Source: Bosea sp. OAE506 (GTDB lineage: Bacteria > Pseudomonadota > Alphaproteobacteria > Rhizobiales > Beijerinckiaceae). Taken from it: 64,000 bases of DNA. A program made the position numbers and the translations under genes. Below are positions 18,552 to 53,298 of this stretch, one piece after another. The DNA is taken from NCBI RefSeq assembly GCF_040546595.1, contig NZ_JBEPOB010000001.1, positions 4,341,001-4,405,000 of the forward strand, given 5' to 3'. The notes under the pieces were generated by a model. It made no database searches. It was not told the DNA's origin and saw only the letters and a program-made list of their open reading frames with translations. Position 1 is the first letter of the stretch. Each line of letters begins with the position of its first letter.

Positions 18552-18591
18552 CAAGGAGCGACCGGCCGCTGCGCGGCCCAACTGACCCCAC

Positions 18592-34101: not shown

Positions 34102-35691
34102 TCAGTAGACGTCGGCCTGGTAGCGTTCCGCCTTCCGGAGCGCCGCGACATAGGCCACCGCCTCCTCGGCCGAGCGCTGGCCATGCGCGGCGACGACATC
34201 GACCATGGCGCGCTCGACGTCCTTCGCCATGCGCTTGGCGTCGCCGCACACATAGAAATGCGCGCCCTGCTCCAGCCAGGCGAAGAGTTCGGCGCCGCGC
34301 TCGCGCATGCGGTCCTGGACATAGATCTTCTCGTCGCCGTCGCGCGACCAGGCAAGCGTCAGGTTGGTCAGCAGGCCCTCCTGCTTCATCGCGCTCAGCT
34401 CATCCTCGTAGAAGAAATCGCTGGCGCGGCGCTGATGGCCGAAGAACAGCCAGTTGCGGCCCGGCGCCTTCGTCGCCCGCCGGTCGTGCAGGAAGGCGCG
34501 GAACGGCGCGATGCCGGTGCCCGGTCCGCACATGATGATCGGCGTATCCGGATTGGCCGGCAGGCCGAAGCCATGCGCGCGCTGGACATAGACCGGCACC
34601 GTCTCGCCGGGCTCGACGCGTTCGGCCAGGAAGGTCGAGGCGACGCCCCAGCGTGGGCGCGTGCCGATGCGATAGCGCACGGCATCCACCGTCAGCGAGA
34701 CGCGACCCGGCGTGGCGTTGTGGGAGGACGAGATCGAATAGAGGCGCGGCTGCAGTGGATCGAGCGCCTCGACGAAGGCTTCAGGCGAAAGCCTGGCATG
34801 GGCGAATTTGTGGAGCGTGCCGAGCACGTCGAGCCGGTCGAGATCGCCATCAGGGTCCTCGCCGGCCGCCAGCCGCTTCGCCTTTGTTCGGGTCTCGCCG
34901 CCGGTGACGTAGGAGATCAGCTGGAACAGCGCGTCGGGCGCGGGGCCGAGTGCAACGTCCGAGATCAGCGCCCCGCGAAGAGTCTTGCCATTCACGATCG
35001 CATCGGGTCGGGCGCCGAGCAGGGCAATGACGGCGTCGGCCAGGCGCGGATCGTTCTGCGCGACGACGCCGAAGGCATCCCCCACCACATAGTCGAGCCC
35101 GCAGCCCGAGAGGTCGAACTCGACATGCCAGGTCTCCTTCTGCGAGCCCTCGCCATTGAGCTTGCGGCGGGAGAGGAAGGTGGCGAGGGCCGGGTTCTCG
35201 CGGCAACGCCCCAGCGGGCCGAGCGTGGCGGGCGCGGGCACGTCCGTCGCAGAAGCCGCAGGAGCAACCGCGCCCCCTTCCTCCATCAGCGCCTTGACCT
35301 GGCGCAGCGTATCCTTGCCGCCCGGCGCGCAGAGATTGAGCCTTGCCTCGGCGCCCGAGGCGATCGCCGCCGAATAGGTCTCGCAGAGATAGCCGCACTG
35401 GCCGCAATCCTGCTGGGCCATGGCGGCGAAGAGCCGGCGCGGGAGAGGCTTGCCCTGCGCGAGCTGCATTCGCTCGGGCAGTTCCATCGAGGGATCGTGC
35501 CAGGGCGCGCCATCATCCTCGGCCTGGCCCATCACGGCGGCGTTCTGCGCCGGAGACAGTGCGGTGACGCCGGCATTGTCGAGTGAGAGCAGCCCCGCGA
35601 AGAAGCCGTTCAGCCAGGAGCGCTGTTCCTCGCTGAAGGGCGCGGTCTCGGGCAGGACCTGGACGATGGGGCTGGCGGTCTGGATGGTCAT
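34102..35691 (-). CDS. Fe-S/flavin reductase, CysJ-like without flavodoxin domain
   Basis: A 529-residue protein, probably the NADPH-dependent electron donor to NirA. Residues 90-125 contain CGQCGYLCETYSAAI and a fourth Cys in NLCAPGG, the [4Fe-4S] pattern of the PF04060 type. Residues about 160-370 form the FAD domain of diflavin reductases (RLYSISSSHN for FAD; GVASTFLAERV), and residues 380-529 the NADPH domain (MCGPGTGIAPFRAFLHDRR, GHQRRASDFFYEDEL, YVCGDAKRMAKDVE, ending in DVY). The flavodoxin domain of CysJ is missing and the Fe-S module takes its place. The start overlaps the nirA stop (ATGA). Often annotated as sulfite reductase alpha; context favours nitrite reduction. Confidence 0.85.
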   Translation of the reverse strand: MTIQTASPIVQVLPETAPFSEEQRSWLNGFFAGLLSLDNAGVTALSPAQNAAVMGQAEDDGAPWHDPSMELPERMQLAQGKPLPRRLFAAMAQQDCGQCGYLCETYSAAIASGAEARLNLCAPGGKDTLRQVKALMEEGGAVAPAASATDVPAPATLGPLGRCRENPALATFLSRRKLNGEGSQKETWHVEFDLSGCGLDYVVGDAFGVVAQNDPRLADAVIALLGARPDAIVNGKTLRGALISDVALGPAPDALFQLISYVTGGETRTKAKRLAAGEDPDGDLDRLDVLGTLHKFAHARLSPEAFVEALDPLQPRLYSISSSHNATPGRVSLTVDAVRYRIGTRPRWGVASTFLAERVEPGETVPVYVQRAHGFGLPANPDTPIIMCGPGTGIAPFRAFLHDRRATKAPGRNWLFFGHQRRASDFFYEDELSAMKQEGLLTNLTLAWSRDGDEKIYVQDRMRERGAELFAWLEQGAHFYVCGDAKRMAKDVERAMVDVVAAHGQRSAEEAVAYVAALRKAERYQADVY

Positions 35692-37481
35692 GCCGCGTCT
35701 CCCGTCTGCGCGACGAGCGCCTGCAGCGCTCCGATCTCGTGGCGGCGGGCGAAGGCGACGAAGCTCTCGTCGGGCGCGGCGCGGTGCGTCTGCCAGGTGC
35801 GCAGGATCGCCTCGACCACAGCCGGCGCCTCCTCCGCCTTCACATTCGTGCGAAACTCGCGGCCGATGCCGCCCTCGATGCCGAAGCCGCCACCCACGAA
35901 GACATGGTAGCCCGGGACCGTGTCACCCTCCTCCCCGACCGGGACCTTGGCGCCGATCAGGCCGAGATCGCCGATATAGTGCTGGGCGCAGGAGTTGTGG
36001 CAGCCGGTGAGGTGGATGTTAACGGGCGTATCCAGCGTGATCCGCGGCTCGCAATGCGCGGCGATCGCGAGCGCATCCTCCTTGGTGTAGGCGCCGGCGA
36101 ATTTGCACCCCGTCGCGCCGGTGCAGGCGATCAGCCCGGCGCGCAGGATCGAGGTCTCGGCCGAGAGCCCGGCCGCCTGGAGATGGGCCAGCACGTCGTC
36201 GACCTTCGCATCCGGCACGCCGGAGATCAGCAGGTTCTGCCAGACGGTCAGGCGGATGTCGCCATCGCCGCATTGGCGCGCGACGCAGGCGATGACCCGC
36301 ATTTGGGCGACGGTGAGCTTGCCGACGGGCAGCGCCACGCCGACCCAGTTGAGGCCCGGCTGGAGCTGGCGGTGGACTCCGATATGGGCGAGCCGGTCAT
36401 AGACCGGCCGCGGTGCGACGAAGGCGGTCTCGACCCGGATCAGGCGCCGCCCTAGCTTCTCCTCGACGGCGGCGAGGAAGCGCTCGAAGCCCCAGGCGTC
36501 GAGCACGTATTTCAGCCGTGAGCGGTTGCGGTCGGTGCGGTCGCCATTGGCGATGAAGACGCGCAGGATCGCGTCCGAGACGGCAACCGCATCCGCGGGC
36601 GCGACGACGACACCGGTGTCGCGAGCGAGGTCCTTGTGGCCGGTGATGCCGCCGAGCGCGAGGCGATACCAGATGCCGGGCGCCACGGGCTGTCCCTCGA
36701 AGCTGGCGCCCTCCAGCACCTCGATCGCCTGGAAGCCGATATCGTTGGTGTCCTCCAGCGTCGCGATCGAGCCGGCGCCATCGAAAGCGACATTGAACTT
36801 GCGCGGCAGGCCGTAGAGCGAGCGGTTGTTGAGGATGTGATGGTGCCAGGCACGGGCGTGGGGCCGCGTGTCGAGCAGTTCGAGCGGGTCGATGCCGGCG
36901 GTGGCCGAGCCCGTGACGTTGCGGATGTTGTCGGCGCCAGAGCCCTTTGCGGTCAGGCCGAGATCGACGAGCCCTTCGAGGAAGGCCGGCCCGTTCTCGG
37001 CCGTGATCTCGCGAACCTGGAGATTGGCGCGAGTGGTGACATGGCTGTAGCCGCCGCCCAGGCGCTCGGCGAGATCGGCGACGCCCTCGAACTGCCAGGC
37101 GGTCAGAATGCCGTTGGGAATGCGCAGGCGGCACATATAGCTGTTCTGCGCGGGCGCTACGTAGAAGAGCCCGTGATAGCGCCAGCGGAAATTGTCGTCC
37201 GGCTTGGGATAAGTGCCAGTCCCCGCCTGCTGCTTGAAGCGGGCATAGGCGTCGAAGGGATGTTCGGCCGCTTTCCATTTCTCCTGGTCGACGAGCTTGC
37301 CGCCGTCAGCGACCTGGCGCGCCTGCGCCTCCAGATGCTCGCGATCGGGACCTGACGGCGCGGCCGCGGGAGTCGCCCCACCGCCGAGCGGGCCCAGGCC
37401 ACGCGCTGTGCGGGCGGACTGCATGCCGGACATGAAGCCTTCGAGATAGCGCTTCTGCTCGGGGGTGAAGTCGTCGCTCAT
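35688..37481 (-). CDS. nirA: Ferredoxin-type assimilatory nitrite reductase NirA
   Basis: Siroheme/[4Fe-4S] enzyme reducing nitrite to ammonium with six electrons, 597 residues. The shared cluster/siroheme cysteines are CTGATGCKFA near residue 452 and GCHNSCAQHYIGDLGLIGA near 492 (C-x5-C...C-x3-C). The two half-repeats with TTRANLQVREI and RLTVWQNLLI are those of nitrite/sulfite reductases. Sulfite reductase is the main alternative, but its place in the nitrate operon decides for nitrite. A 152-base gap with a palindromic repeat separates it from nrtD upstream. Its first 17 residues resemble those of the overlapping reductase gene. Confidence 0.93.
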   Translation of the reverse strand: MSDDFTPEQKRYLEGFMSGMQSARTARGLGPLGGGATPAAAPSGPDREHLEAQARQVADGGKLVDQEKWKAAEHPFDAYARFKQQAGTGTYPKPDDNFRWRYHGLFYVAPAQNSYMCRLRIPNGILTAWQFEGVADLAERLGGGYSHVTTRANLQVREITAENGPAFLEGLVDLGLTAKGSGADNIRNVTGSATAGIDPLELLDTRPHARAWHHHILNNRSLYGLPRKFNVAFDGAGSIATLEDTNDIGFQAIEVLEGASFEGQPVAPGIWYRLALGGITGHKDLARDTGVVVAPADAVAVSDAILRVFIANGDRTDRNRSRLKYVLDAWGFERFLAAVEEKLGRRLIRVETAFVAPRPVYDRLAHIGVHRQLQPGLNWVGVALPVGKLTVAQMRVIACVARQCGDGDIRLTVWQNLLISGVPDAKVDDVLAHLQAAGLSAETSILRAGLIACTGATGCKFAGAYTKEDALAIAAHCEPRITLDTPVNIHLTGCHNSCAQHYIGDLGLIGAKVPVGEEGDTVPGYHVFVGGGFGIEGGIGREFRTNVKAEEAPAVVEAILRTWQTHRAAPDESFVAFARRHEIGALQALVAQTGDAA

Positions 37482-37530
37482 GGTTTTGCTTTTCCGGGTC
37501 GTGGGGTGATCCCGTCTCCCCACACTGAGC

Positions 37531-37633: not shown

Positions 37634-38425
37634 TCACGCCGCATCGACGAAGCGGTGGCGCTCGTAGAGGAACTTCAGCACCGCCTCGCGGGCGGCGATG
37701 TAGGTCCGGTCGGAGACCAGATCGAGCCGCTTGCGAGGCCGCGCGAGCCGAACGTCGAGCACCTCGCCGATGCGGGCGGAGGGGCCGTTGGTCATCATCA
37801 CGATGCGGTCCGAGAGCAGCACCGCCTCGTCGACGTCATGGGTGATCATGATCATCGTGTTCCCGAGCGTGGCGTGAATCTGCATGATCGAATCCTGCAG
37901 ATGCGCCCGGGTCAGCGCGTCGAGCGCCCCGAAGGGCTCGTCCAGCAGCAGGATCTTCGGCTCCATCGAGAGGCCGCGCGCGATTCCGACGCGCTGCTTC
38001 ATGCCGCCGGAGATCTCGGCCGGGCGCTTGTCCTTCGCGTGCCCCATCTGGACGAGGTCGAGATTGTGCAGGATCCAGTCATGCCGCTCGGCCTTCGACT
38101 TGCGGCCGCCGAAGACCTTGTTCACGGCCAGCGCGACATTGTCGTAGACGGTGAGCCAGGGCAGCAGCGAGTGGTTCTGGAAGACCACGGCGCGCTCGGG
38201 GCCGGGATCGCGGACCTCCCGGCCTTCGAGCAGGACCGCGCCGCTCGTGATCGGCGTCAGCCCCGCGATGATGTTGAGCAGGGTCGACTTGCCACAGCCG
38301 GAATGGCCGATCACGGAGACGTATTCGCCCTTCTCGATCTCGAGGCTGATGTCCTTGAGGACGGGGGTCGAGGTCGCGCCGCGCTGGAAGGTTTTGTCGA
38401 CATGGTCGATCTTGAGATAGCTCAT
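37634..38425 (-). CDS. nrtD: Nitrate ABC transporter ATP-binding protein NrtD
   Basis: A 263-residue ATPase. Walker A is GHSGCGKST, the signature is ISGGMKQRVGIARGL, Walker B is ILLLDEPFGALD, and the switch His is in MITHDVDEAV. NHSLLPWLTVYDNVALAV is the Q-loop typical of the nitrate/taurine/sulfonate subclass. It has only one ATPase domain and no fused binding domain (so NrtD rather than NrtC). Spaced 13 bases from nrtB. Confidence 0.94.
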   Translation of the reverse strand: MSYLKIDHVDKTFQRGATSTPVLKDISLEIEKGEYVSVIGHSGCGKSTLLNIIAGLTPITSGAVLLEGREVRDPGPERAVVFQNHSLLPWLTVYDNVALAVNKVFGGRKSKAERHDWILHNLDLVQMGHAKDKRPAEISGGMKQRVGIARGLSMEPKILLLDEPFGALDALTRAHLQDSIMQIHATLGNTMIMITHDVDEAVLLSDRIVMMTNGPSARIGEVLDVRLARPRKRLDLVSDRTYIAAREAVLKFLYERHRFVDAA

Positions 38426-38438
38426 CGGTCGATCCTCC

Positions 38439-39347
38439 TCAGTTGACGAGCGTGCCGCGGGTGACGATCGCGCCGACGAAGGCGACCAGGCGGTCGAGCA
38501 GGAAGCCGACCACGCCGATGTAGACGAGCGCCACGATGATGTCGGACAGGCGCGAGGAATTCCACGCGTCCCAGATGAAGAAGCCGATACCGACGCCGCC
38601 GGTCAGCATTTCGGCCGCGACGATGGCGAGCCAGGACAGGCCGACCCCGATGCGCAGCCCCGTGAAGATGTAAGGCGCCGCCGAGGGCACCATGATCTTG
38701 AAGAAGAACTCGACCTGGTTCAGCCGTAGCACCTGCGCGACGTTGCGGTAGTCCTGCGGGATGTTGCGGATGCCGACGGCCGTGTTGATGATCACCGGCC
38801 AGATCGCGGTGATGAAGATTACGAAGATCGCCGAGGGCTGGCTGTCGCGGAAGGCCGCGAGCGAGAGCGGCAGCCAGGCCAGTGGCGGCACGGTGCGCAG
38901 CACCTGGAAGACCGGATCGAGCCCCCGCATCGCCCAGACCGACTGGCCGACGAGCGCGCCGAGCAGCACGCCGACGATCGCAGCGAGGCTGAAGCCGATG
39001 GCGACGCGCTGAAGCGAGACCAGGATGCGCCAGCCGAGGCCAATATCCTGCGAGCCCGCCCAGTAGAACGGTTCGACGATGAGATCCTTCGCCTCCTCCC
39101 AGATCTTGGTCGGCGGCGGCAGCGAAGATTGCGGGCCCGAGGCCGCGATCTGCCAGAACAGTGCGATCAGCGCGACCGTCACCAGCGGCGGCAGCACATT
39201 GACGAGGATCGCCCTGAGCCAGGGCAGCAGCCTGGCCGACAGCGGCTTGCGGGCGGGCGCCGGCAGCGCCACCACGCCGGGCTTGGCGCCCGGCAACGCA
39301 ACCACCGTCGCGCCCGTCTCCACTTCCTTCAGGACGGCCCGACCCAT
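38439..39347 (-). CDS. nrtB: Nitrate ABC transporter permease NrtB
   Basis: A 302-residue inner-membrane permease with six hydrophobic helices. The EAA-type coupling region is VAQVLRLNQVEFFFKIMVPSAAPYIFTGLRIG. RTVPPLAWLPLSLAAF and IIVALVYIGVVGFLLDRL are typical of NrtB/SsuC/TauC proteins. AGAGGAG lies six bases before the ATG at 39347. Pairs with NrtD and the binding protein NrtA, from which it is separated by the reductase genes. Confidence 0.93.
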   Translation of the reverse strand: MGRAVLKEVETGATVVALPGAKPGVVALPAPARKPLSARLLPWLRAILVNVLPPLVTVALIALFWQIAASGPQSSLPPPTKIWEEAKDLIVEPFYWAGSQDIGLGWRILVSLQRVAIGFSLAAIVGVLLGALVGQSVWAMRGLDPVFQVLRTVPPLAWLPLSLAAFRDSQPSAIFVIFITAIWPVIINTAVGIRNIPQDYRNVAQVLRLNQVEFFFKIMVPSAAPYIFTGLRIGVGLSWLAIVAAEMLTGGVGIGFFIWDAWNSSRLSDIIVALVYIGVVGFLLDRLVAFVGAIVTRGTLVN

Positions 39348-39381
39348 CAGATTCTCCTCTGGTTGTCGCATCGCGAGGGCT

Positions 39382-42087
39382 TCATGCCGCGATCGTGGCG
39401 CGCGCCTGCGCGCCGATGCGGCGGATTTCGGGGAGGCAGGAGCCGCAATTGGTACCCGCCTTGAGCTGTCGGCCGATCTCGTCGGGGCTTGCCGCGCCTC
39501 CGGCGAAGGCGGCGCGGATCGCCGCGAGGCCGACGCCGAAACAGGCGCAGACGGTCGGGCCGGCATCGGCCGCGCCGTCAAGGCTGCGCCCGGCTAGCAG
39601 CGCGAGGCGATTGTCCGGCAGCGCCGCGTGATCAGCGAAGGCGCGTTTCATGCTGTCCCAGAGCGGCAAGCCGCCGAAGGGGGCAAGGAACAGGGCAGCC
39701 AGCAGCCGGCCGTCGCGGATGACGGCGCAGCGATAGGCGCCGCCGGCCATGTCGACCATCTCGGTCAGGTCCGCCTCTTCGAAGCGGGCCCTGACGGCGG
39801 CCATCAATTCGGCCGGCCCGGCATCCGTCGCGAAGAGCCGCGCCTCGCCGCCCTCGACCGCGAGCCTTGACCACCAGCTGCCCTCGGGCAGCATAAAGTC
39901 TTCGCGCGACAGCACGAAACCCTGCGCGGCATAGGTCACAGGCTCGACCGATGACGGCGTCGCCTTCATCTCCGGCTGGCCGGACCAGGGATCGCAGACA
40001 GCCTGGACGGCCGCACCAATGCGAGCATGAGAAGCGGTCTCCGCCGACCAGTGGATCGGTGCGAAGAGCGACCCGCGCGTCATGCCGGGATCGAGCGCGA
40101 CCTTCAGCACGACGCTGCCATGGGCGTTGGCGATACGGGCGAAGCCGCCCTCTGTCAGAGCGTAGCGGCGCGCATCCTCAGGATGGATCTGGACGGATGG
40201 CTCGGCGCTGTGAGCGCTGAGCCGGGGGCTGAGGCCAGTGCGCGTCATCGTGTGCCAGTGATCGCGCAGGCGCCCCGTATTGAGCAGCAGCGGCATGGCT
40301 TCGCTCGCAGCACTGGCAAGCGCCGGGGTGGCGAGCGGCACCATCCGGGCGCGGCCATCCGCCGTGAAGAAGCCGCCTTCGGCGAAGAGGCGCGGCGTGC
40401 CGAGCGGCCGGGCGGCGGGGGCCGGCCATTGCACAGGCTGGAGTGCGTCATAGGCGCGCTTCGTCAGACCCGCATGGGCGCCGATGTCGAAATCGCGGCG
40501 GCCCTCATTCTCGAAGGCCGAGAGCGCGGCATGCTCGGCATAGATTGCGGCCGGGCCGGCATGGGCGAAGGCGTCCGCGAAGCCCAGACGCTGCGCGACC
40601 TGCGCGATAATCCACCAATCCGGCCTGACCTCGCCTGGCAGTAGCAAGAAGGCACGCTGGCGCGAGATGCGGCGCTCGGAATTGGTGACCGTGCCGTCCT
40701 TCTCGCCCCAGGCGGCCGCCGGCAGGATGAGATGCGGCTTCGCCGAGAGCGTGTCGTTGGAGAGCACGTTCTCCGAGACGACGAAGAGGTCGAGCCCGGA
40801 GAGCGCCGCGCGGACCCGGTCGGCCCGGGGCAGCGAGACAGCCGGGTTGGTCGCCATCACCCAGAGCGCGCGGATGCGCCCGGCCTCGACCGCCTCCATC
40901 ATCGCGACGGCCTTCAGGCCCTCGGCCTGCGCCATCCGGGGCGCATTCCAGAAGCGCTGGACGCGGTCGATCTCCGCCGGGGCATAGCCCATATGGGCGG
41001 CCAGCATATTGGCCAGCCCCCCGACCTCGCGGCCGCCCATCGCGTTGGGCTGGCCGGTGAGCGAGAAGGGTCCGCTGCCCGGCTTGCCGATGCGGCCCGC
41101 CGCCAGGTGGCAGTGCAGGATCGCCGCGACCTTGTCGGTGCCCTGCGCCGACTGGTTGACGCCCTGGCTCCAGGCGGTGACGACGGCCGGCGTCTCGCTC
41201 CAGAGCGCGTAGAAGGCGGCGATCTCGGTCTCGTCGAGCCCCGTCCCGCGCGCGACCGCCGCCAACGAGGGCGCGATCTCGCGGGCATTGGTGAGGGCGG
41301 CTTCATAGCCCTCGACATGGCAGGCGAGGTAGTCCGCATCGGTCAGGCCGTGATCGGCGAGATGGACCAGCAGACCGGCAAAGAGCAGCGTGTCAGAGCC
41401 GGGCGCCAGCCGCAGCACCCTATCCACGTCTTCGCTCGTGGCGGTCGCGCGCGGGTCGATGACGACGATGCGGGCGCCGCGCTGCGCCCGGTTCTGCTGC
41501 ATGCGGCGGAACAGGACCGGGTGGCACCAGGCGGCATTCGAGCCGACGAGGACGATCAGATCGGCCCGGTCGAGATCCTCATAGCTGCCCGGCACGGTAT
41601 CAGAGCCAAAGACGCGGCGCTGACCGGCGACGGTCGAGGCCATGCAAAGCCGCGAATTGGTGTCGACATGGGGCGAGCCAATGAAGCCCTTCATCAGCTT
41701 GTTGGCGAGGTAGTAGTCCTCGGTCAGGAGCTGCCCGGAGAGATAGAAGGCGACCGCGTCCTGCCCATGAGCGGCGATGACGCCTTTCAGCCCATCGGCG
41801 ACCGCGTCCAAGGCCACATCCCAGCTGACGCGCTCATAGCCGCCGGTTGCGGTGCGGCGCAGCGGATGCAGCACGCGCGAGTCGAGGCCTAGCGTTTCGC
41901 CCAGTGCCGCCCCCTTGGAGCAGAGCCGGCCGAGATTGGCGGGATGGGACGGATCGCCCGCGATGGTCGCACCGCCGCGCCCATCCGGTGTCGCGAGAAC
42001 GCCGCAGCCGACGCCGCAATAGGGGCAGGTCGTGCGGATCGCCTCGGCAGGCATGGGTGGCCCGGGCTGATCGGCATCGCGACGCAT
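39382..42087 (-). CDS. nasA: Assimilatory nitrate reductase catalytic subunit NasA
   Basis: Molybdopterin enzyme reducing nitrate to nitrite, 901 residues. The N-terminal [4Fe-4S] motif is CPYCGVGC with a fourth Cys in RLCSKG; the probable Mo ligand Cys is in DTNSRLCMAST at about residue 150. HLILPAAAWGEKDGTVTNSERRIS and NTGRLRDHWHTMTRTG mark cofactor contacts. The last 55 residues form a BFD-type [2Fe-2S] domain (VCACFGV, NCGSCLPEI). Electrons should come from the FAD protein immediately upstream (one-base gap). Needs molybdenum cofactor, consistent with moaA in the window. Confidence 0.95.
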   Translation of the reverse strand: MRRDADQPGPPMPAEAIRTTCPYCGVGCGVLATPDGRGGATIAGDPSHPANLGRLCSKGAALGETLGLDSRVLHPLRRTATGGYERVSWDVALDAVADGLKGVIAAHGQDAVAFYLSGQLLTEDYYLANKLMKGFIGSPHVDTNSRLCMASTVAGQRRVFGSDTVPGSYEDLDRADLIVLVGSNAAWCHPVLFRRMQQNRAQRGARIVVIDPRATATSEDVDRVLRLAPGSDTLLFAGLLVHLADHGLTDADYLACHVEGYEAALTNAREIAPSLAAVARGTGLDETEIAAFYALWSETPAVVTAWSQGVNQSAQGTDKVAAILHCHLAAGRIGKPGSGPFSLTGQPNAMGGREVGGLANMLAAHMGYAPAEIDRVQRFWNAPRMAQAEGLKAVAMMEAVEAGRIRALWVMATNPAVSLPRADRVRAALSGLDLFVVSENVLSNDTLSAKPHLILPAAAWGEKDGTVTNSERRISRQRAFLLLPGEVRPDWWIIAQVAQRLGFADAFAHAGPAAIYAEHAALSAFENEGRRDFDIGAHAGLTKRAYDALQPVQWPAPAARPLGTPRLFAEGGFFTADGRARMVPLATPALASAASEAMPLLLNTGRLRDHWHTMTRTGLSPRLSAHSAEPSVQIHPEDARRYALTEGGFARIANAHGSVVLKVALDPGMTRGSLFAPIHWSAETASHARIGAAVQAVCDPWSGQPEMKATPSSVEPVTYAAQGFVLSREDFMLPEGSWWSRLAVEGGEARLFATDAGPAELMAAVRARFEEADLTEMVDMAGGAYRCAVIRDGRLLAALFLAPFGGLPLWDSMKRAFADHAALPDNRLALLAGRSLDGAADAGPTVCACFGVGLAAIRAAFAGGAASPDEIGRQLKAGTNCGSCLPEIRRIGAQARATIAA

Positions 42088-42088
42088 C

Positions 42089-43303
42089 TCAGGCCGCCTC
42101 CGCCAGGCAATAGGGCTCGCCGAAGGGCAGTTCGCTGCGGATGGCGGAGATGTCCTGCCCCGAGCGGATCAGCCGGAGATAGAACAGCGCGCCCTGCGTA
42201 TCGCCGACGAGGACGCAGCCGGCGAGGTGGCCGTCGCGGATGACGAATTTGCGGTAGAGGCCGGTCGCGCGGTCGCGCAGCACGATGGTCTGCGCCCCCT
42301 CCCCCGCCTCGAACTCTCCCGCGGAGAATACGCCGATGCCGCTGACCTTGAGATTGGTCGCCAGCAGCGAGCCGCGATAGCGCGCCTGCTGGCCGGCAAG
42401 CCGACGCGCCAGCACGCGCGCCTGTTCATAGGCCGGCTCGACCAGCCCGTAGACGCTGCCGTCGTGCTGGGCGCATTCGCCGATCGCGAAGATATCGGGA
42501 TCGCTCGTGGCCAAACCATCGTCGACGAGGATGCCGCGGTCCACGCCGAGCCCGGCAGCCCGCGCGAGTTCCGCATGGGGCCGCACACCGATCGCGACGA
42601 CGACGAGGTCCGCCGGCAGCACGGTTCCGTCCTGGAGCTCGACGGCCTCGACATGGTCGCGTCCGACGAAGCCTCGCGTGGCGGCGCCCAGCCGCAGATC
42701 GATGCCGCGCAGCGCGACGGCCTCGGCCAGCAGGGCCGCGCCCTCGGCATCGAGCTGGCGCTCCATCAGCCGGTCAACCAGATGCAGCAGCGTCACCCGC
42801 CCACCGCTGCGCGACAGCCCATAGGCAGCCTCGATGCCGAGCAGGCCGCCGCCGATGACGACGATGCGCGCGCCGCTACGGGCCCGCTCGCGCAGGGTCC
42901 GCACATCGGCCATGTCGCGGAAGGTCATCACGCCCGGCAGGTCGGTGCCCGGCAAAGGCGGCCGGACCGGCTTCGAGCCGGTCGCCAGGACGAGCTTGCC
43001 ATAGGGCAGCGTTGCGCCGTCCGCGAGGGTCACGATCTTCGCGCCGCGGTCGATGGCGGTGACGCCGCGCCCATAGAAGGTCGAGACGCCGCGGGCGCGC
43101 CACCAGGCGGCCGGCTTCAGCTCGACATCGGCCTCGGCGATCTCGCCGGCCAGCAGCGGCGAGAGCAGGACGCGGTTATAGGCCAGCCGCGGCTCCTCGC
43201 CGATCACCGCGATGGCATGGCGACCGAGCGCGCGCTGGCCGAGTTCCTCGACCAGCCGCGTCGCGGCCATGCCCTTCCCGACGATGACGAGGGGCTCGGC
43301 CAT
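42089..43303 (-). CDS. FAD-dependent NAD(P)H oxidoreductase, nitrate reductase electron-transfer subunit
   Basis: A 404-residue flavoprotein matching the N-terminal half of NirB/NasB. FAD and NAD sites are VIVGKGMAATRLVEEL and IVVIGGGLLGIEAAYGL, with RLAYNRVLLSPLLAGE and ATGSKPVRPPLPG as in that family. IFAIGECAQHDGSVYGLVEPAYEQARVLA is the second FAD motif. It lacks the BFD and siroheme domains of full NirB; NasA carries the BFD domain instead. Likely passes NADH electrons to NasA. Equivalent to nasB of Bacillus or nasC of Klebsiella. Confidence 0.88.
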   Translation of the reverse strand: MAEPLVIVGKGMAATRLVEELGQRALGRHAIAVIGEEPRLAYNRVLLSPLLAGEIAEADVELKPAAWWRARGVSTFYGRGVTAIDRGAKIVTLADGATLPYGKLVLATGSKPVRPPLPGTDLPGVMTFRDMADVRTLRERARSGARIVVIGGGLLGIEAAYGLSRSGGRVTLLHLVDRLMERQLDAEGAALLAEAVALRGIDLRLGAATRGFVGRDHVEAVELQDGTVLPADLVVVAIGVRPHAELARAAGLGVDRGILVDDGLATSDPDIFAIGECAQHDGSVYGLVEPAYEQARVLARRLAGQQARYRGSLLATNLKVSGIGVFSAGEFEAGEGAQTIVLRDRATGLYRKFVIRDGHLAGCVLVGDTQGALFYLRLIRSGQDISAIRSELPFGEPYCLAEAA

Positions 43304-43307
43304 CGGC

Positions 43308-44627
43308 TCAGGCGACCCGCTTGATCTTGAGGGCCTTGAGGTAGTCCATCGGCGCCGCGGGATCGAACTTCACGCCGTCGAAGAAGGTCTCGACGCCGCG
43401 GGAATCCGCGGTCGGGGCACCGGAAACGCCCAGTGTCTTGGCCGCCTCGCGCCAGAGATCCGAGCGGTTGGTCTTGTCGACCAGCGCCTTGATGTCGATC
43501 GTCGGCTCGAACTTGCCCCATCGGATGTTCTCGGTGACGAACCAGGTGTCGAGGCTCTTCCAGGGATAGGATGACGAGCCGCCCTCGCCCCAGAACTTCA
43601 TCTGGAGATTGGTGCCCTTCACCTCGCGGCCATTGCCGTAGTTGATGTCGCCGAGCAGGCGCTTGTTGATGTCATTGACGGGAACGTTGAACCACTGCCG
43701 GCGGCCGACGATTTCGGAGAGTTCCTGGCGGTTCTCGCGCTTGTCGGCCCATTGCTGGGCTTCCATCACCGCCATCAGGATGGCCTGCGTCGCCTTCGGG
43801 TTGGCGTCGACGAAATCGGCCCGCATGCCGAGGATCTTCTCGGGGTGCCGCGACCAGAGTTCGCCGGTGGTCAGGGCGGTGTAGCCGATGTTCTGGTTGA
43901 CGAGCTGCTCGTTCCAGGGTTCGCCGACGCAGAAGCAGTCCATCGTGCCGACCTTCATGTTCGCCACCATCTGCGGCGGCGGCACGGTGATGACCTTGAT
44001 GTCGGTGTCGGGGTCGATGCCGCCGGCGGCGAGCCAGTAGCGGATCCAGAGGTCGTGGGTGCCGCCCGGGAAGGTCATGGCGGCGGTGAGTTCCTTGCCC
44101 GCCGCCTTCTTTCGCTCGAAGGCGAGCTTCAGCGGCGAGGCATCCTTCTGAACGTTCAGGTCCTTGTATTCGTTGGAGACCGAGATCGCCTGGCCGTCCT
44201 CGTTGAGGTTCAGCAGCGTGTACATCGGCAGCGGCTGGTTGTTCTGCATCACCTTCCCGGTGGAATAGAGATGCGTCTTCGGGCGCAGGATGTGGCCGCC
44301 ATCGATGCCGTTGTTCTTGAAGCCGAGCGCCATGTTGTCGCGCGTCGCGCCCCAGCTCGCCTGCTTGGCGATGTCCATGTCGGGCAGGCCGTACTTCGCG
44401 TAGAGGCCCTTTTCCTTGGCGATGATCAGGGGCGAGGCATCGGTCAGCGCGATGTAGCCGAGACGCGTGCCCTTGACCTCGGGGCCCGCGCTCTGCGCGA
44501 AGGCGCCGGACGGCAGCGCGAGGCGCGCGGCGCTCAACAGCGCGGCGGCGCCCGACAGCTTCAGCAGCCGGCGGCGGCCGACATTCACGGATGCGGGCTT
44601 TGTGCTGGTCTCGACTGTGTTCGTCAT
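43308..44627 (-). CDS. nrtA: Nitrate ABC transporter substrate-binding protein NrtA
   Basis: A 439-residue periplasmic nitrate binder. The leader VGRRRLLKLSGAAALLSAARLALPSGAFAQS is Tat-type. KGTRLGYIALTDASPLIIAKEKGLYAKYGL and ASWGATRDNMALG are the NrtA/CmpA signature, with the GGHILRPK, FPGGTHDLWIRYWLAAGG and DCFCVGEPWNEQLV ligand regions. RBS GAGAGG is eight bases before the ATG. It is the first gene after the antiterminator leader and begins the structural operon. Confidence 0.95.
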   Translation of the reverse strand: MTNTVETSTKPASVNVGRRRLLKLSGAAALLSAARLALPSGAFAQSAGPEVKGTRLGYIALTDASPLIIAKEKGLYAKYGLPDMDIAKQASWGATRDNMALGFKNNGIDGGHILRPKTHLYSTGKVMQNNQPLPMYTLLNLNEDGQAISVSNEYKDLNVQKDASPLKLAFERKKAAGKELTAAMTFPGGTHDLWIRYWLAAGGIDPDTDIKVITVPPPQMVANMKVGTMDCFCVGEPWNEQLVNQNIGYTALTTGELWSRHPEKILGMRADFVDANPKATQAILMAVMEAQQWADKRENRQELSEIVGRRQWFNVPVNDINKRLLGDINYGNGREVKGTNLQMKFWGEGGSSSYPWKSLDTWFVTENIRWGKFEPTIDIKALVDKTNRSDLWREAAKTLGVSGAPTADSRGVETFFDGVKFDPAAPMDYLKALKIKRVA

Positions 44628-44675
44628 CGATCGCCTCTCGGTTTGCGAAGGAAGGCCCGCCTGCCGCCGAACACG

Positions 44676-44722
44676 AAAAACGCCGCGCGAATGCACCCAT
44701 GGGCACGTTCGACAGCGGCGTT
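44676..44722 (-). terminator. Leader terminator upstream of nrtA
   Basis: On the minus-strand transcript the 5' arm AACGCCGC (44722-44715) pairs exactly with the 3' arm GCGGCGTT (44686-44679). An inner hairpin (CGAA...TTCG around CCCATGGG) extends it, and five T residues (44680-44676) follow. This is a strong intrinsic terminator 48 bases before the nrtA start. Its 5' arm is shared with the loop and 3' arm of the second ANTAR-type hairpin, so the two cannot form together. This is the usual logic of NasT antitermination. Confidence 0.82.
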
Positions 44723-44768
44723 GCTGTGCAGTTCCGGTTCGGAGGATGGCGCGGGCAGCGTTGGCCGC
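44712..44768 (-). ncRNA. ANTAR-type two-hairpin antiterminator element (NasT target)
   Basis: Two stem-loops in the nrtA leader. P1 is GCGGCC-AACGCT-GCCCGC (44768-44751) with one C-C mismatch one pair below the loop. P2 is ACAGC-AACGCC-GCTGT (44727-44712). Both have six-base loops with A at position 1 and G at position 4, the residues known to be recognised by ANTAR proteins, and the first five loop bases are identical. The linker is 23 bases, longer than I would expect. NasT, encoded just upstream, is the obvious ligand; bound P2 would occupy the terminator's 5' arm. Confidence 0.78.
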
Positions 44769-44782
44769 GTCGGATCAAGCCT

Positions 44783-44798
44783 TACAAGGTTCGTGCCA
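44783..44798 (-). promoter_or_regulatory. Sigma-54 promoter of the nrtA operon
   Basis: TGGCACGAACCTTGTA matches the sigma-54 consensus TGGCACG-N4-TTGCW at all but one core position (TTGT for TTGC), with correct -24/-12 spacing. Transcription would start near 44772, a few bases before hairpin P1, exactly where the leader should begin. This implies NtrC-type activation under nitrogen limitation, in addition to nitrate-dependent antitermination. I did not find a convincing NtrC site upstream. Confidence 0.72.
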
Positions 44799-44934
44799 GC
44801 CGGCGCCGCGCAGGCGGCTGTCTGGAATTACAACAGCTTGGACGGTGCACGCAGGGGTTGGTGGCGCGATCAGACCCGGCCGATGAAGCGCAGAAATCAG
44901 GCGTGACTGCTCATTTCGGCGCCACGCCAGCGGA

Positions 44935-45981
44935 TCAGGCGGTATCGATCGGAAAAGCGGCAGGCCGGAACACGGCGCGCGCCTGCTCCAGCATTCCGGG
45001 CGACGGGACGATCTGTCCGGCGCGTTCCATGCCCGCCAGAATCCAGTCGGCCTGCTCGGGAACCGGGCGCAGCGCCTCGCGATCGAAGCGGATGAAGCGC
45101 TCGACCTGGCGCGGCGGTCGCCCCGCGCCCTGCAGCAGATTGAAGTGCAGCACCGGCTCGAGGATTTCGACCGGGAGTGCGAGCCGGTCAGGCGCCGAGA
45201 GGTGCGCGGCGAAGCGCGGGATGTTGGCGGGGTCGCAGGCCCAGTCGCTGGCCCGCAGGATGGCCGCTGTCAGCTTCTGGACCGCGGCCGGGCGGCGCTC
45301 GATATCGTCGGCCTGCCAGGCGAGGACCTTATCGGGGCAGTCTCGCCGCAGATCGGTGCTGGTGTGGACCATCGCGCCGACCCCGGCCGCCACTGCAGCG
45401 GCATTCCACGGCGCACCCGCACAGAAGCCATCGACGCGGCCGCTGCGCAGGGCCTCGACCGTCTGGGGCGGTGGAACAACCTCGAAGCGGATATCCGTCC
45501 CCAACGAGAGCCCGGCCTTCGCCAGCCATTCGCAGATCAGATAGGTGTGGCTGGAGAAGCCGAAGACGGCCGCCAGCGTGAGCGGCGGCAGCCCCGAGGC
45601 CTTGCGGCGGGCGACCAGCGCCGCGAGCGCGCGGGCGGACACCGTCGTATCGGCCATATCGCCCTCGGCGAGGCGCGCGAGTTCCTCATAGCGCCGCAAC
45701 GTCACCGTGATCGCGGCACCGTCGAGATTGAGCGCGAGCGGCACTGCCATGGGCGCCCGGACGCCACCGACGCCGAGCGTCGCGGCGATGGCGGCTGGGC
45801 CGAGCATATGGGCGGCGTCGAACAGGCGAACGTTGAGCTTGTCGCGCAGATTGGACCAGGACACCTCGCGCACGAGTTCGAGGTTCAGCCCCTCGGCCTC
45901 GGCGAACCCCTCGTCCTTGGCCAGCACGACCAGCGCGCAATCGACCAGCGGCATGAAGCCGACCCGCAGATGCAGCGTCAT
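44935..45981 (-). CDS. nasS: Nitrate sensor NasS (cytoplasmic NrtA-like)
   Basis: A 348-residue relative of NrtA with no signal peptide (it starts MTLHLRVGFMPLVDCALVVLA), so it should be cytoplasmic. VSWSNLRDKLNVRLFDAAHMLGPAAIA and RVDGFCAGAPWNAAAV are the ligand-binding regions. In related alphaproteobacteria NasS holds NasT inactive and releases it when nitrate binds. It lies between nasT and the leader of the operon it should control. Its start region contains a tandem 17-base duplication. Confidence 0.9.
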   Translation of the reverse strand: MTLHLRVGFMPLVDCALVVLAKDEGFAEAEGLNLELVREVSWSNLRDKLNVRLFDAAHMLGPAAIAATLGVGGVRAPMAVPLALNLDGAAITVTLRRYEELARLAEGDMADTTVSARALAALVARRKASGLPPLTLAAVFGFSSHTYLICEWLAKAGLSLGTDIRFEVVPPPQTVEALRSGRVDGFCAGAPWNAAAVAAGVGAMVHTSTDLRRDCPDKVLAWQADDIERRPAAVQKLTAAILRASDWACDPANIPRFAAHLSAPDRLALPVEILEPVLHFNLLQGAGRPPRQVERFIRFDREALRPVPEQADWILAGMERAGQIVPSPGMLEQARAVFRPAAFPIDTA

Positions 45982-46015
45982 GTCAGCACCTCGGTCATGT
46001 CAGCACCTTGGTCAT
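45977..46015 (-). repeat. Tandem 17-base repeat at the nasT-nasS junction
   Basis: On the minus strand ATGACCAAGGTGCTGAC (46015-45999) is followed directly by ATGACCGAGGTGCTGAC (45998-45982) and then ATGAC of the nasS start (45981). Units differ at one base. The first ATG overlaps the nasT stop. The first two ATGs open six-codon frames (MTKVLT and MTEVLT) that end at a TGA overlapping the next ATG, so each stop abuts the following start. Looks like recent slippage duplication of the ribosome-binding region. Confidence 0.75.
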
Positions 46016-46596
46016 TTGAACACCTCGGCGGCCGTGATGATCGAGCGCGCGATGTCGACGAGCTTGCGCTTGTCGTTCATGGCGGTGCGCCGCAGCAGGG
46101 CATAGGCCTCCTCCTCCGGCAGGCTCTTCATGCGCATGACGATGCCCTTGGCTTTGTCGACCAGCTTGCGCTCCTCGAGCTGGGAGCGGGCCTCGTCCAG
46201 TTCCTCGCGGAGCTTGCGGAAGGCGTTGAAGCGGCTGATGCAGGTCTGCAGGATCGGTTGCATCCGCTCCTTCTTCAGCCCGTCGACGATATAGGCGGAG
46301 ACGCCAGCCTCGACTGCGGCCTCGATCGAGGCGGAATCGGACTGGTCGACGAACATGGTGATCGGCCGCCGGACATGGCGGCTGACCAGGAACATGTCGG
46401 CCAGCGCATCGCGGCTGGGGTCCTCGAGGTCGATCACGACCACGTCGGGATCATGGGTCTCGATCGCCTTGACCAGGCCCTGCGTCGCGCCGATCCGCAC
46501 GAGATCGGTGAAGCCGGCCTCGCGCAGGCCCTCGTCGATGATCGCCGCCCGCACCGGGTTGGCATCGACGATCAGGATCTTGAGATCGGGCCTCAC
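46012..46596 (-). CDS. nasT: ANTAR antitermination response regulator NasT
   Basis: A 194-residue regulator. An N-terminal receiver-like domain (residues 1-120; KILIVDANPVRAAI, VVIDLEDPSRD, AYIVDGLKKE) joins a coiled helix and a C-terminal ANTAR RNA-binding domain (LVDKAKGIVMRMKSLPEEEAYALLRRTAMNDKRKLVDIARSII). It should bind the twin hexaloop hairpins in the nrtA leader and prevent termination when NasS has bound nitrate. Directly upstream of nasS. Confidence 0.93.
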   Translation of the reverse strand: MRPDLKILIVDANPVRAAIIDEGLREAGFTDLVRIGATQGLVKAIETHDPDVVVIDLEDPSRDALADMFLVSRHVRRPITMFVDQSDSASIEAAVEAGVSAYIVDGLKKERMQPILQTCISRFNAFRKLREELDEARSQLEERKLVDKAKGIVMRMKSLPEEEAYALLRRTAMNDKRKLVDIARSIITAAEVFK

Positions 46597-51561: not shown

Positions 51562-53298
51562 TCAGAACAGGAAATAGCGCTGCGCCAGCGGCAGTTCCTT
51601 GGCGGGCTCGCAGACGAGCAGTTCGCCGTCGGCAACGACCGCATAGGTCTCCGGGTCGATCTGGATGTCGGGCGTGGCGTCGTTGTGGATCATGCTCTTC
51701 TTGGAGATGCCGCCGCGGGTGTTCTCGACCGCGACCATCTCCTTCTCGGTGCCCAGCCGGTTGCGCAGGCCGTTGGCCATCGCGGCCTGCGAGACGAAGA
51801 CCAGCGAGGTCGAGGTCACCGCCTTGCCGAAGGCGCCGAACATCGGGCGGTAATGCACCGGCTGCGGCGTCGGGATCGAGGCGTTCGGGTCGCCCATCGG
51901 GGCAGCGGCGATCATGCCGCCCTTGATGATCAGGTCCGGCTTGGTCGCGAAGAAGGCCGGCGACCAGACCACGAGATCGGCGAGCTTGCCGATCGCGATC
52001 GAGCCGATATGGCGCGAGATGCCATGCGCGATGGCGGGGTTGATCGTGTATTTCGCGACATAGCGCTTGGCGCGGAAATTGTCGGCGCCGGTGCCGACAT
52101 CCTGCGCGAGCGTGCCGCGCTGGACCTTCATCTTGTGCGCGGTCTGCCAGGTGCGGGTGATCACCTCGCCGACACGGCCCATGGCCTGGCTGTCCGAGGA
52201 CATCATCGAGAGCGCGCCGAGATCGTGCAGGATGTCCTCGGCCGCGATCGTCTCCTTGCGGATGCGGCTCTCGGCGAAGGCAAGATCTTCCGGGATCGAG
52301 GGCGACAGGTGATGACAGACCATCAGCATGTCGAGATGCTCGTCGAGCGTGTTGACGGTGAAGGGCCGCGTCGGATTGGTCGATGACGGCAGGACGTTCT
52401 CGAGGCCTGCGACCTTCATGATGTCGGGCGCATGGCCGCCGCCCGCCCCTTCCGTGTGGAAGGCATGGATGGTGCGGCCCTTGAAGGCGGCGATCGTGTC
52501 CTCGACGAAGCCGCTTTCGTTGAGCGTGTCGGTGTGAATCATCACCTGCACGTCGTAGTCGTCGGCGACGGAGAGGCAGTTGTCGATCGCAGCCGGCGTC
52601 GTGCCCCAGTCCTCGTGCAGCTTCATCGCGCAGGCACCGGCCTCGACCATCTCGATCAGGGCGCCGGGCAGCGCCGCGTTGCCCTTGCCGGCGAAGGCGA
52701 GGTTCATCGGGAAGGCGTCGGCGGCCTTGATCATCTGGCCGAGGTGCCAGGGGCCGGGCGTGCAGGTCGTCGCCAGCGTGCCGTGCGCGGGGCCGGTGCC
52801 GCCGCCGAGCATGGTGGTGAGCCCGCTCATCAGCGCATCCTCGATCTGCTGCGGGCAGATGTAATGGATATGGCTGTCGAAGCCGCCGGCAGTGACGATC
52901 TTGCCCTCGCCTGCGATGACTTCGGTGCCCGGGCCGACGATGATCGTCTCGGTGGGGTCGAAATTGCCGAAGCCGCTCTGGATGTCGGGATTGCCGGCCT
53001 TGCCGATGGCACAGATGCGGCCCGCGCGGATGCCGATATCGGCCTTCACGATGCCCCAGTGGTCGAGGATCAGCGCGTTGGTGATGACGGTGTCGACGGC
53101 GCCGTCGGCATTGCGGACCTGGCTCTGGCCCATGCCGTCACGGATGACCTTGCCGCCGCCGAACTTCACCTCCTCGCCATAGGTCGTGAAATCCTTCTCG
53201 ACCTTGATGACGAGATCGGTGTCGCCGAGGCGCACCGTGTCGCCGGTGGTGGGGCCGAACATCGCGGCATAGGCGTTGCGGGGGTAATTGAAGGGCAT
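51562..53298 (-). CDS. ureC: Urease alpha subunit UreC
   Basis: Catalytic subunit of nickel urease (urea to ammonia and carbamate), 578 residues. Nickel ligands lie in [25 protein letters not shown] (carbamylated Lys), [27 protein letters not shown] and [32 protein letters not shown] is the active-site flap region. Start [20 protein letters not shown] at 53298. It is directly downstream of ureAB. Confidence 0.97.

Follow-up and report, generated by a model that had tools for sequence, protein, structure and literature searches.

The 64-kb stretch of Bosea sp. OAE506 DNA analysed here (the window) carries a set of genes that all lie on the minus strand, in the order nasT, nasS, leader, nrtA, FAD oxidoreductase, molybdopterin oxidoreductase, nrtB-like, nrtC/D-like and NirA-like (Table 1). 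The nasT gene, with its receiver and ANTAR domains, sits about 1.2 kb upstream of the leader, where the preliminary description had placed it, and was the sole ANTAR gene found in the genome of this strain. The closest NrtA proteins among named records were mostly from Bosea. A second NrtA-like gene, 34% identical, is present in the same genome at C1:1287891-1289069.

Table 1. Position and strand of the genes and leader elements in the window, with the basis of each assignment
Feature	Position	Strand	Basis
nasT, receiver + ANTAR (Response_reg + ANTAR)	46012-46596	-	domain search
nasS-like nitrate-binding partner (NMT1_2)	44935-45981	-	domain; named by position beside nasT
Degenerate activator dyad, one half (TTTCTGC) retained, the second half lost	44880-44896	-	half-site aligned by eye
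Sigma-54-type promoter TGGCACG-N4-TTGT (-24/-12), TGGCACGAACCTTGT	44798-44784	-	read from sequence
Putative transcription start	44772	-	12 nt past the -12 base, by sigma-54 geometry
P1 (also P0, the distal hairpin), CGCGGCC-AACGCT-GCCCGCG, hexaloop	44769-44750	-	sequence, composite scan, folding
Linker, 22 nt	44749-44728	-	between P1 and P2
Weak candidate spacer hairpin TCCG-AAC-CGGA in linker	44743-44733	-	-3.2 kcal/mol, p = 0.125, alone not significant
P2, ACAGC-AACGCC-GCTGT, hexaloop, 5 bp	44727-44712	-	sequence, composite scan
Intrinsic terminator AACGCCGC...GCGGCGTTTTT	44722-44676	-	5' arm = P2 loop + P2 3' arm
Candidate post-read-through partner of linker: U-tract + next bases	44660-44678	-	complementarity, -18.8 kcal/mol
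nrtA-type nitrate-binding protein, first gene of controlled operon	43308-44627	-	name from context
FAD/NAD(P) oxidoreductase, likely operon member	42089-43303	-	domain search
Molybdopterin oxidoreductase with Fer2_BFD, likely the operon's nitrate reductase	39382-42087	-	domain search
nrtB-like ABC permease	38439-39581	-	domain search
nrtC/D-like ABC ATPase	37634-38425	-	domain search
NirA/sulfite-reductase-like protein, likely last operon gene	35688-37523	-	domain search

Direct reading of positions 44,676-44,798 recovered the parts that had been reported there, that is, a sigma-54 site, two hexaloop hairpins and a terminator reusing a loop. Both loops, AACGCT in P1 and AACGCC in P2, have A at position 1 (A1) and G at position 4 (G4), and each is closed by a C:G pair (C44763-G44756 in P1, C44723-G44716 in P2). 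The 5' arm of the terminator was indeed made of the second loop and its 3' arm, as had been proposed, and P2 and the terminator, which share these bases, are mutually exclusive; the terminator T-run spans 44680-44676. The P2 stem is intact. P1 carries a C·C mismatch at the second pair counted from the loop and has a slipped alternative fold. It begins 14 nt after the TGGCACG-N4-TTGT site. The linker between P1 and P2, first given as 23 bases, measures 22 nt, the earlier figure holding if P1 is counted as six pairs.

These elements recall several known systems. In Klebsiella oxytoca, nasF/NasR couples a nitrate-assimilation operon to Ntr control and nitrate-dependent ANTAR antitermination (PMC5424462), and the nasF leader has two hexaloop hairpins with a C:G closing pair, A1 and G4 (PMC7496416). 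SELEX with NasR returned a C:G pair closing each loop, and the two-hairpin motif was considered likely to be general, NasT included (PMC7496416). However, Klebsiella uses the one-component NasR, whereas the Bosea locus encodes NasS-NasT. The latter pair is shared with Paracoccus denitrificans, in which the leader is found at the equivalent location, a nasS-nasA interval of ~200 bp, a leader hairpin is needed for nasA expression and NtrBC exerts control (PMC5424462, PMC3795266); NasT was reported to bind the nasA leader RNA and nitrate to dissociate NasS-NasT (PMC3795266). There, in contrast, the downstream operon is nasABGHC and the NtrC site lies at nasT. Published accounts describe nitrate-dependent ANTAR antitermination under Ntr control in Klebsiella and argue for it in Paracoccus (PMC5424462, PMC3795266). 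In Bradyrhizobium diazoefficiens, NasT acts on the nosR mRNA, interacting with the leader and interfering with the terminator there, and the NasT regulon has predicted hairpins in other leaders as well (nirA, coxS) (PMC6759348); the target genes differ from ours, and the text of PMC6759348 does not mention nrtA. Finally, the eut leaders of Enterococcus faecalis, read by EutV, have dual A1/G4 hexaloops, the second overlapping a terminator (PMC3369931, PMC8934654). They differ by their length-sensitive linkers of 5-12 nt (PMC3369931), as against 22-23 nt in Bosea, where the distal hairpin is also mismatched at one of the two pairs nearest the loop.

We propose that the feature combines a sigma-54-type promoter with a leader subject to NasT-dependent antitermination and that it controls the nrtA nitrate-uptake/reduction operon; we give this reading a probability of roughly 0.87. 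The pairing of such a promoter with an ANTAR leader, already suggested in the preliminary description, was well supported by conservation, by co-occurrence with an ANTAR gene and by the uniqueness of the composite motif in the window, as detailed below. The regulatory logic proposed here, in which a nitrogen-limitation promoter is combined with nitrate-dependent antitermination, is already established for nas operons, and the layout of the window leader is an unusual variant. According to this proposal, RpoN polymerase would start at about 44772 and P1 would emerge from about +4. In the absence of nitrate, NasS would hold NasT and the transcript would form the terminator from the P2 loop and 3' arm. 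In the presence of nitrate, freed NasT would bind P1 and then P2 and hold the latter open against the terminator; the operon would then be read. The linker hairpin would keep the two binding sites, 22 nt apart, at a workable distance.

The promoter site is present, with GG at -24 and the correct spacing, but its -12 element departs from consensus. Since the consensus sigma-54 -12 element is GC and the window has GT, we limit the claim to a sigma-54-type site. Among 139 related leaders, 67 sites ended in C, 37 in A, 33 in T and 2 in G (72/139 without C), and all 23 Bosea-type leaders had the site, ending in T in 19, in A in 4 and never in C. The pattern TGGCACG-N4-TTGY (TGGCACGNNNNTTGY) occurred 8 times in the genome versus once for the reversed control, the leader copy being the sole TTGT. 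One RpoN was found in the genome and one NtrC exceeded the cut-off, at 708 bits. Many relatives (e.g., L004, L103 and L105; L numbers designate individual loci) have a dyad, TTTGTGC-N3-GCACAAA, upstream of TGG, at a distance of ~95 nt in Bosea and up to ~155 nt in Rhizobium. In the window, its left half TTTCTGC is still recognizable by eye at 44896-44890; the best dyad score was 9/14, which 15/60 shuffles equalled, and the close relative L137 scored 8. We make no claim for this dyad as an NtrC site: the exact TGTGC-N3-GCACA occurs nowhere in the genome of the strain, and we take the palindrome to be different from the enteric NtrC site. Nitrogen control of the leader promoter is what we infer, and an AND gate combining nitrogen limitation and nitrate would be consistent with the published systems.

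We then turned to rarity, using a composite scan rule that combined a hexaloop hairpin, another hexaloop hairpin and a terminator overlapping the second loop. On both strands of the window it returned a single site, the leader itself, and 200 simulated 64-kb strands contained no such site; the 1.17 Mb of collected loci yielded 62 matches, at most one per locus. Dropping the first hairpin from the rule left 2 window sites and 9 sites across the 200 simulated strands. The additional window site, at 18561 (+), is a hexaloop hairpin in which the loop and a terminator-like repeat overlap, with no upstream partner hairpin. The P2-terminator pattern occurred once in the 5.0-Mb genome. Another possibility was that the terminator simply ends the nasTS transcript, which its location directly downstream of nasS and in the same direction would fit, and that the hexaloop likeness is coincidental. 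We consider this barely credible in view of the result on simulated strands, of the near-constant spacing downstream of the sigma-54-type site and of the leader preceding nrtA also at loci where nasT falls outside the stretch studied.

Folding calculations gave -23.7 kcal/mol for the terminator and -5.4 kcal/mol for P2. For P1, the hexaloop fold had -7.1 kcal/mol (-8.0 with an A1-U6 pair added) and the slipped tetraloop -6.9; since the slipped and plain hexaloop folds differ by no more than 0.2 kcal/mol, P1 appears nearly bistable in calculation. The minimum free energy of the leader was not exceptional in two tests (z = -1.20 and -1.10), so that our argument draws on motif logic and conservation rather than on stability.

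In 23 aligned Bosea-type leaders (the window's own, those of named Bosea, close relatives and a few assemblies labelled otherwise), no change was seen in the six pairs of P1, in either base of its C·C mismatch or in the five pairs of P2, P1 varying solely at loop positions 2-3, and the core stem of the terminator was paired in 99.5% of cells. Aligning the leaders of related genomes, as had been suggested, showed that 23/23 keep the mismatched P1, P2 and the core of the terminator, and this invariance supports a function. Covariation of the terminator was not above shuffles in these 23 leaders. Because invariant P1 and P2 pairs leave no covariation within the Bosea group, covariation was sought further out. 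There, the distal and middle hairpins of Rhizobiaceae-type leaders covaried, with 28 both-side-changed cells versus 10.9 expected and 0/500 shuffles as high. RNAalifold predicted these two hairpins unprompted.

Leaders upstream of nrtA were collected over the order from a family search (18), an order search (28 more), by region (31) and from named genomes (80, the best 80 of 580). Six near copies (L093, L106, L107, L110, L111 and L147) were dropped from order-wide counts; others stayed in, e.g., L046/L133 and L060/L070. With the six removed, 139/151 leaders had a sigma-54-like site. A hexaloop hairpin 28-66 nt from TGG was present in 111/139 leaders versus 8.5% of shuffled leaders, one with an A1 loop in the same range in 100/139 versus 2.1%, and one obeying a six-pair, one-mismatch rule in a narrower range in 99/139 versus 6.3%, ratios that do not come from independent samples since the leaders are related. 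The distance from TGG to the distal loop was 36 nt in 40/71 A1 leaders and 32-41 nt in all of them (31-42 nt searched). If transcription starts 26 nt beyond the T of TGG, this would place the loop at ~+11 and the hairpin close to the very 5' end of the RNA.

Among distal hairpins with a single mismatch, pair 2 was affected in 39, pairs 3, 4, 5 and 6 in 7, 3, 7 and 5, respectively, and pair 1 in none, while in shuffles the positions were spread about evenly. The 39 pair-2 mismatches comprised 33 C·C (23 Bosea-type, 10 Bradyrhizobium-type), 3 C·A (L005, L109, L139), 2 C·U (L009, L140) and 1 G·A (L108), and outer stems differed between groups sharing a mismatch there. Pair 2 is one of the two loop-closing pairs whose sequence mattered for EutV (PMC3369931). 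The linker and the mismatch had been called atypical. This holds in comparison with eut, but decay of one strain is not the cause, since the C·C is invariant in 23/23 Bosea-type leaders and since many of the nrtA leaders compared combine a distal hairpin and a long linker.

The imperfect P1, with its near-equal slipped fold, raised the question of whether P2 alone counts for antitermination, P1 being a recruitment site or a relic. As a matter of fact, the EutV-RNA structure contacts a single hexaloop, and the minimal motif was redefined as one (PMC8934654). Yet NasR binds the two-hairpin RNA at ~1 uM and P2 alone at ~12 uM (PMC7496416), and both the constancy of P1 among Bosea-type leaders and the frequency of the distal hairpin over the order speak against this view; we hold a P2-only mechanism to be distinctly improbable.

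A linker of 22-23 nt lies beyond the 5-12 nt of eut (PMC3369931) and within the 2-25 nt accepted in actinobacterial ANTAR searches (PMC8164766). Rhizobiaceae-type leaders have 25-37 nt between their distal and P2 hairpins, and this space contains a further hairpin. Its fold reached p <= 0.05 versus shuffles in 22/26 distinct linkers (from 29 loci, L050 having no distal hairpin by rule and two being copies), and the unpaired remainder was 7-9 nt in 17/26, close to eut linkers. In Bosea, the linker hairpin had negative energy in 14/15 distinct linkers, leaving 5-11 nt unpaired in these 14. We rejected it as a strong element of the Bosea leader: it was significant in 1/15 linkers and its helix was paired in 74.7% of cells. 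Because it is weak there, its putative spacer role in Bosea is drawn from relatives. Weak in Bosea and strong or replaced by a hexaloop in relatives, the linker hairpin would most likely act, by analogy, as a distance keeper.

The leader could also be an ordinary dual-hexaloop one in which linker length is irrelevant for NasT and the middle hairpin incidental. The weakness of the Bosea hairpin would fit such a view, as would the 20-nt linkers of L007 and L099, which are devoid of predicted structure, and the range of linkers taken in actinobacteria. In contrast, the middle hairpin is strong and covarying in Rhizobiaceae-type leaders, and EutV is sensitive to length, linkers of 3 or 14 nt drastically reducing induction (PMC3369931) and 20 added nt abolishing antitermination (PMC8934654). 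Overall, irrelevance of the linker seems rather unlikely to us.

In part of Bosea, the linker might instead pair mainly with the U-tract and the following bases after polymerase has moved on, and shut the leader following read-through. True linker-downstream pairs beat permuted ones (0/5000; 15/5000 with 15 distinct linkers; 0/2000 permutations as strong with 12 representatives), and this segment was the best partner among sampled 30-nt pieces of the own stretch in 14/23 Bosea-type leaders. However, it was not the best partner in the other 9/23, column-wise covariation was not above shuffles in a fixed alignment (243/500 as high) and nothing significant appeared in five other groups. We consider it improbable that this pairing is the main function of the linker; the helix may serve as a post-read-through clamp.

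A broader view was obtained by counting layouts in 150 leaders, near copies and L112 (cut short) being dropped; for P2, the CAGC-N6-GCTG core was used where present, and the G4 of P2 is not a result since P2 rules require it. No P2 was found by rule in 29 leaders, including Bradyrhizobium-type ones with a distal hairpin. The most frequent layout, with 60/150, was an A1 distal hairpin and no hexaloop beside P2, and 17/150 carried solely an A1 hexaloop, spaced 15-20 nt from the loop of P2. Both hairpins were present, each with A1, in 7/150 (L076, L082, L086 and the Xanthobacteraceae-type L139, L140, L144 and L154), and with a non-A1 distal loop in 10/150. In the others, an A1 distal hairpin was accompanied by a non-A1 neighbour (4), a non-A1 distal hairpin stood alone (5), a non-A1 neighbour stood alone (2), neither hairpin was present (9) or there was no sigma-54 match (7). 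Three consecutive hexaloops were readable in L139 (Azorhizobium doebereinerae) and in L140, L144 and L154 (Xanthobacter); L143 was arranged in the same way, its distal loop, AACTGC, lacking G4. Family f35 comprises eleven leaders; in the ten considered (L080, from another genus, being excluded), the middle loop had A1 and G4 in 10/10 and the distal loop G4 in 10/10 and A1 in 3/10. The three f35 helices paired in 99.2% of cells and varied too little for covariation to stand out, 198/500 shuffles being as high. L114, a Beijerinckiaceae MAG, has a GATGCA hairpin followed by AGTGCC and AAGGCT hexaloops, and is possibly another three-hairpin leader, with a G1 distal loop.

These layouts led us to a tentative proposal, which we rate at somewhat less than even odds: NasT leaders of Hyphomicrobiales would form a three-hairpin ANTAR class, with a distal hexaloop locked to the start and often mismatched at pair 2, a middle hairpin that can be a third hexaloop or simply a spacer, and a last hexaloop gating the terminator. 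If so, NasT would act across non-adjacent hairpins, and natural linkers would be counted by their unpaired rather than total length. We found no description of a three-hairpin ANTAR leader, or of this order-wide layout, in the open-licence PMC literature. The variant bears on the question of how an ANTAR dimer reads two hairpins: spacing matters in eut, yet loop-to-loop distances within this order range from 16-19 nt up to 53 nt. Long linkers with covarying spacers, three-hexaloop leaders and a repeated mismatch beside the closing pair amount to a natural experiment, to which are added nrtA operons without leader and ANTAR gene that retain a promoter-like site.

Profile searches gave another picture of this diversity. 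No Rfam family matched the leader at the gathering threshold, and at E up to 10 there were sub-threshold matches only, among them narK RNA at 11.5 bits. A covariance model built from 23 Rhizobiaceae-type leaders was intended as an independent detector. Its 22 matches at E up to 10 did not include the window leader, and neither did its 8 matches in the whole genome of the strain (150/8235 candidates scored). Over 46 other loci, 15 matches were obtained at E up to 1, with 5 on leaders (L017, L018, L075, L144 and the Bosea-type L092, E 0.42). A cross-family model that misses the window leader indicates a variant not captured by one simple profile, and we count this failure against easy transfer between families. 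The best match of the model in the own genome was at C1:4708441-4708513 (+), with E 0.089. Elsewhere in the window, RF02514 (5' ureB sRNA) matched at 52836-53146 (+), antisense to the urease alpha gene, with E 1.2e-26; this is more likely conserved coding sequence than an sRNA.

Last, we looked at whether leader and ANTAR gene go together. An ANTAR gene was present in 38/38 genomes with a leader or distal hairpin versus 4/18 rule-negative ones. Among named loci (the best 80 of 580), 53/80 had nasT within the stretch studied, and 41/53 of these passed the leader rule. The other 12 were the six near copies, L092 and L101, which missed the score cut, L112, and L138, L141 and L155, which failed without obvious reason despite a nearby nasT. 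From the 27 other named genomes, 26 were searched for an ANTAR gene, L140 being left out since its nasT is cut by a contig end. It was found in 16/16 positives (14 with a leader, 2 with a distal hairpin only) and in 0/9 negatives, L126 being counted as leader-negative for its AT-rich P2 match without sigma-54 site or upstream hairpin. In L130 (Tagaea sp., ~1-1080), nasS runs straight into nrtA with no leader, although an ANTAR gene is present in the genome. Judged by a loose pattern, 7/9 named negatives retained a sigma-54-like site.

Because these nine negatives were all metagenome assemblies, in which a missing gene could reflect incompleteness, the test was repeated on 30 genomes of stated completeness. 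Six were leader-negative, five of them without an ANTAR gene (L006, 100% complete; L045, 99%; L044, 98%; L012, 82%; L043, 56%) and one with it (L087, 98%). The other 24 all had an ANTAR gene: 19 had P2 by rule, 3 a distal hairpin only (L052, L053, L059) and 2, L062 and L067, were negative by both rules, with a hairpin and terminator visible by eye. The rule-negative genomes with an ANTAR gene were L130, L087, L062 and L067. Upstream of nrtA in L006, we noticed GCAGCGATGCCGC followed by GGCGGCGGTG, with no T-run; by eye, this element looks like the remnant of a leader in a 100%-complete genome lacking the ANTAR gene.
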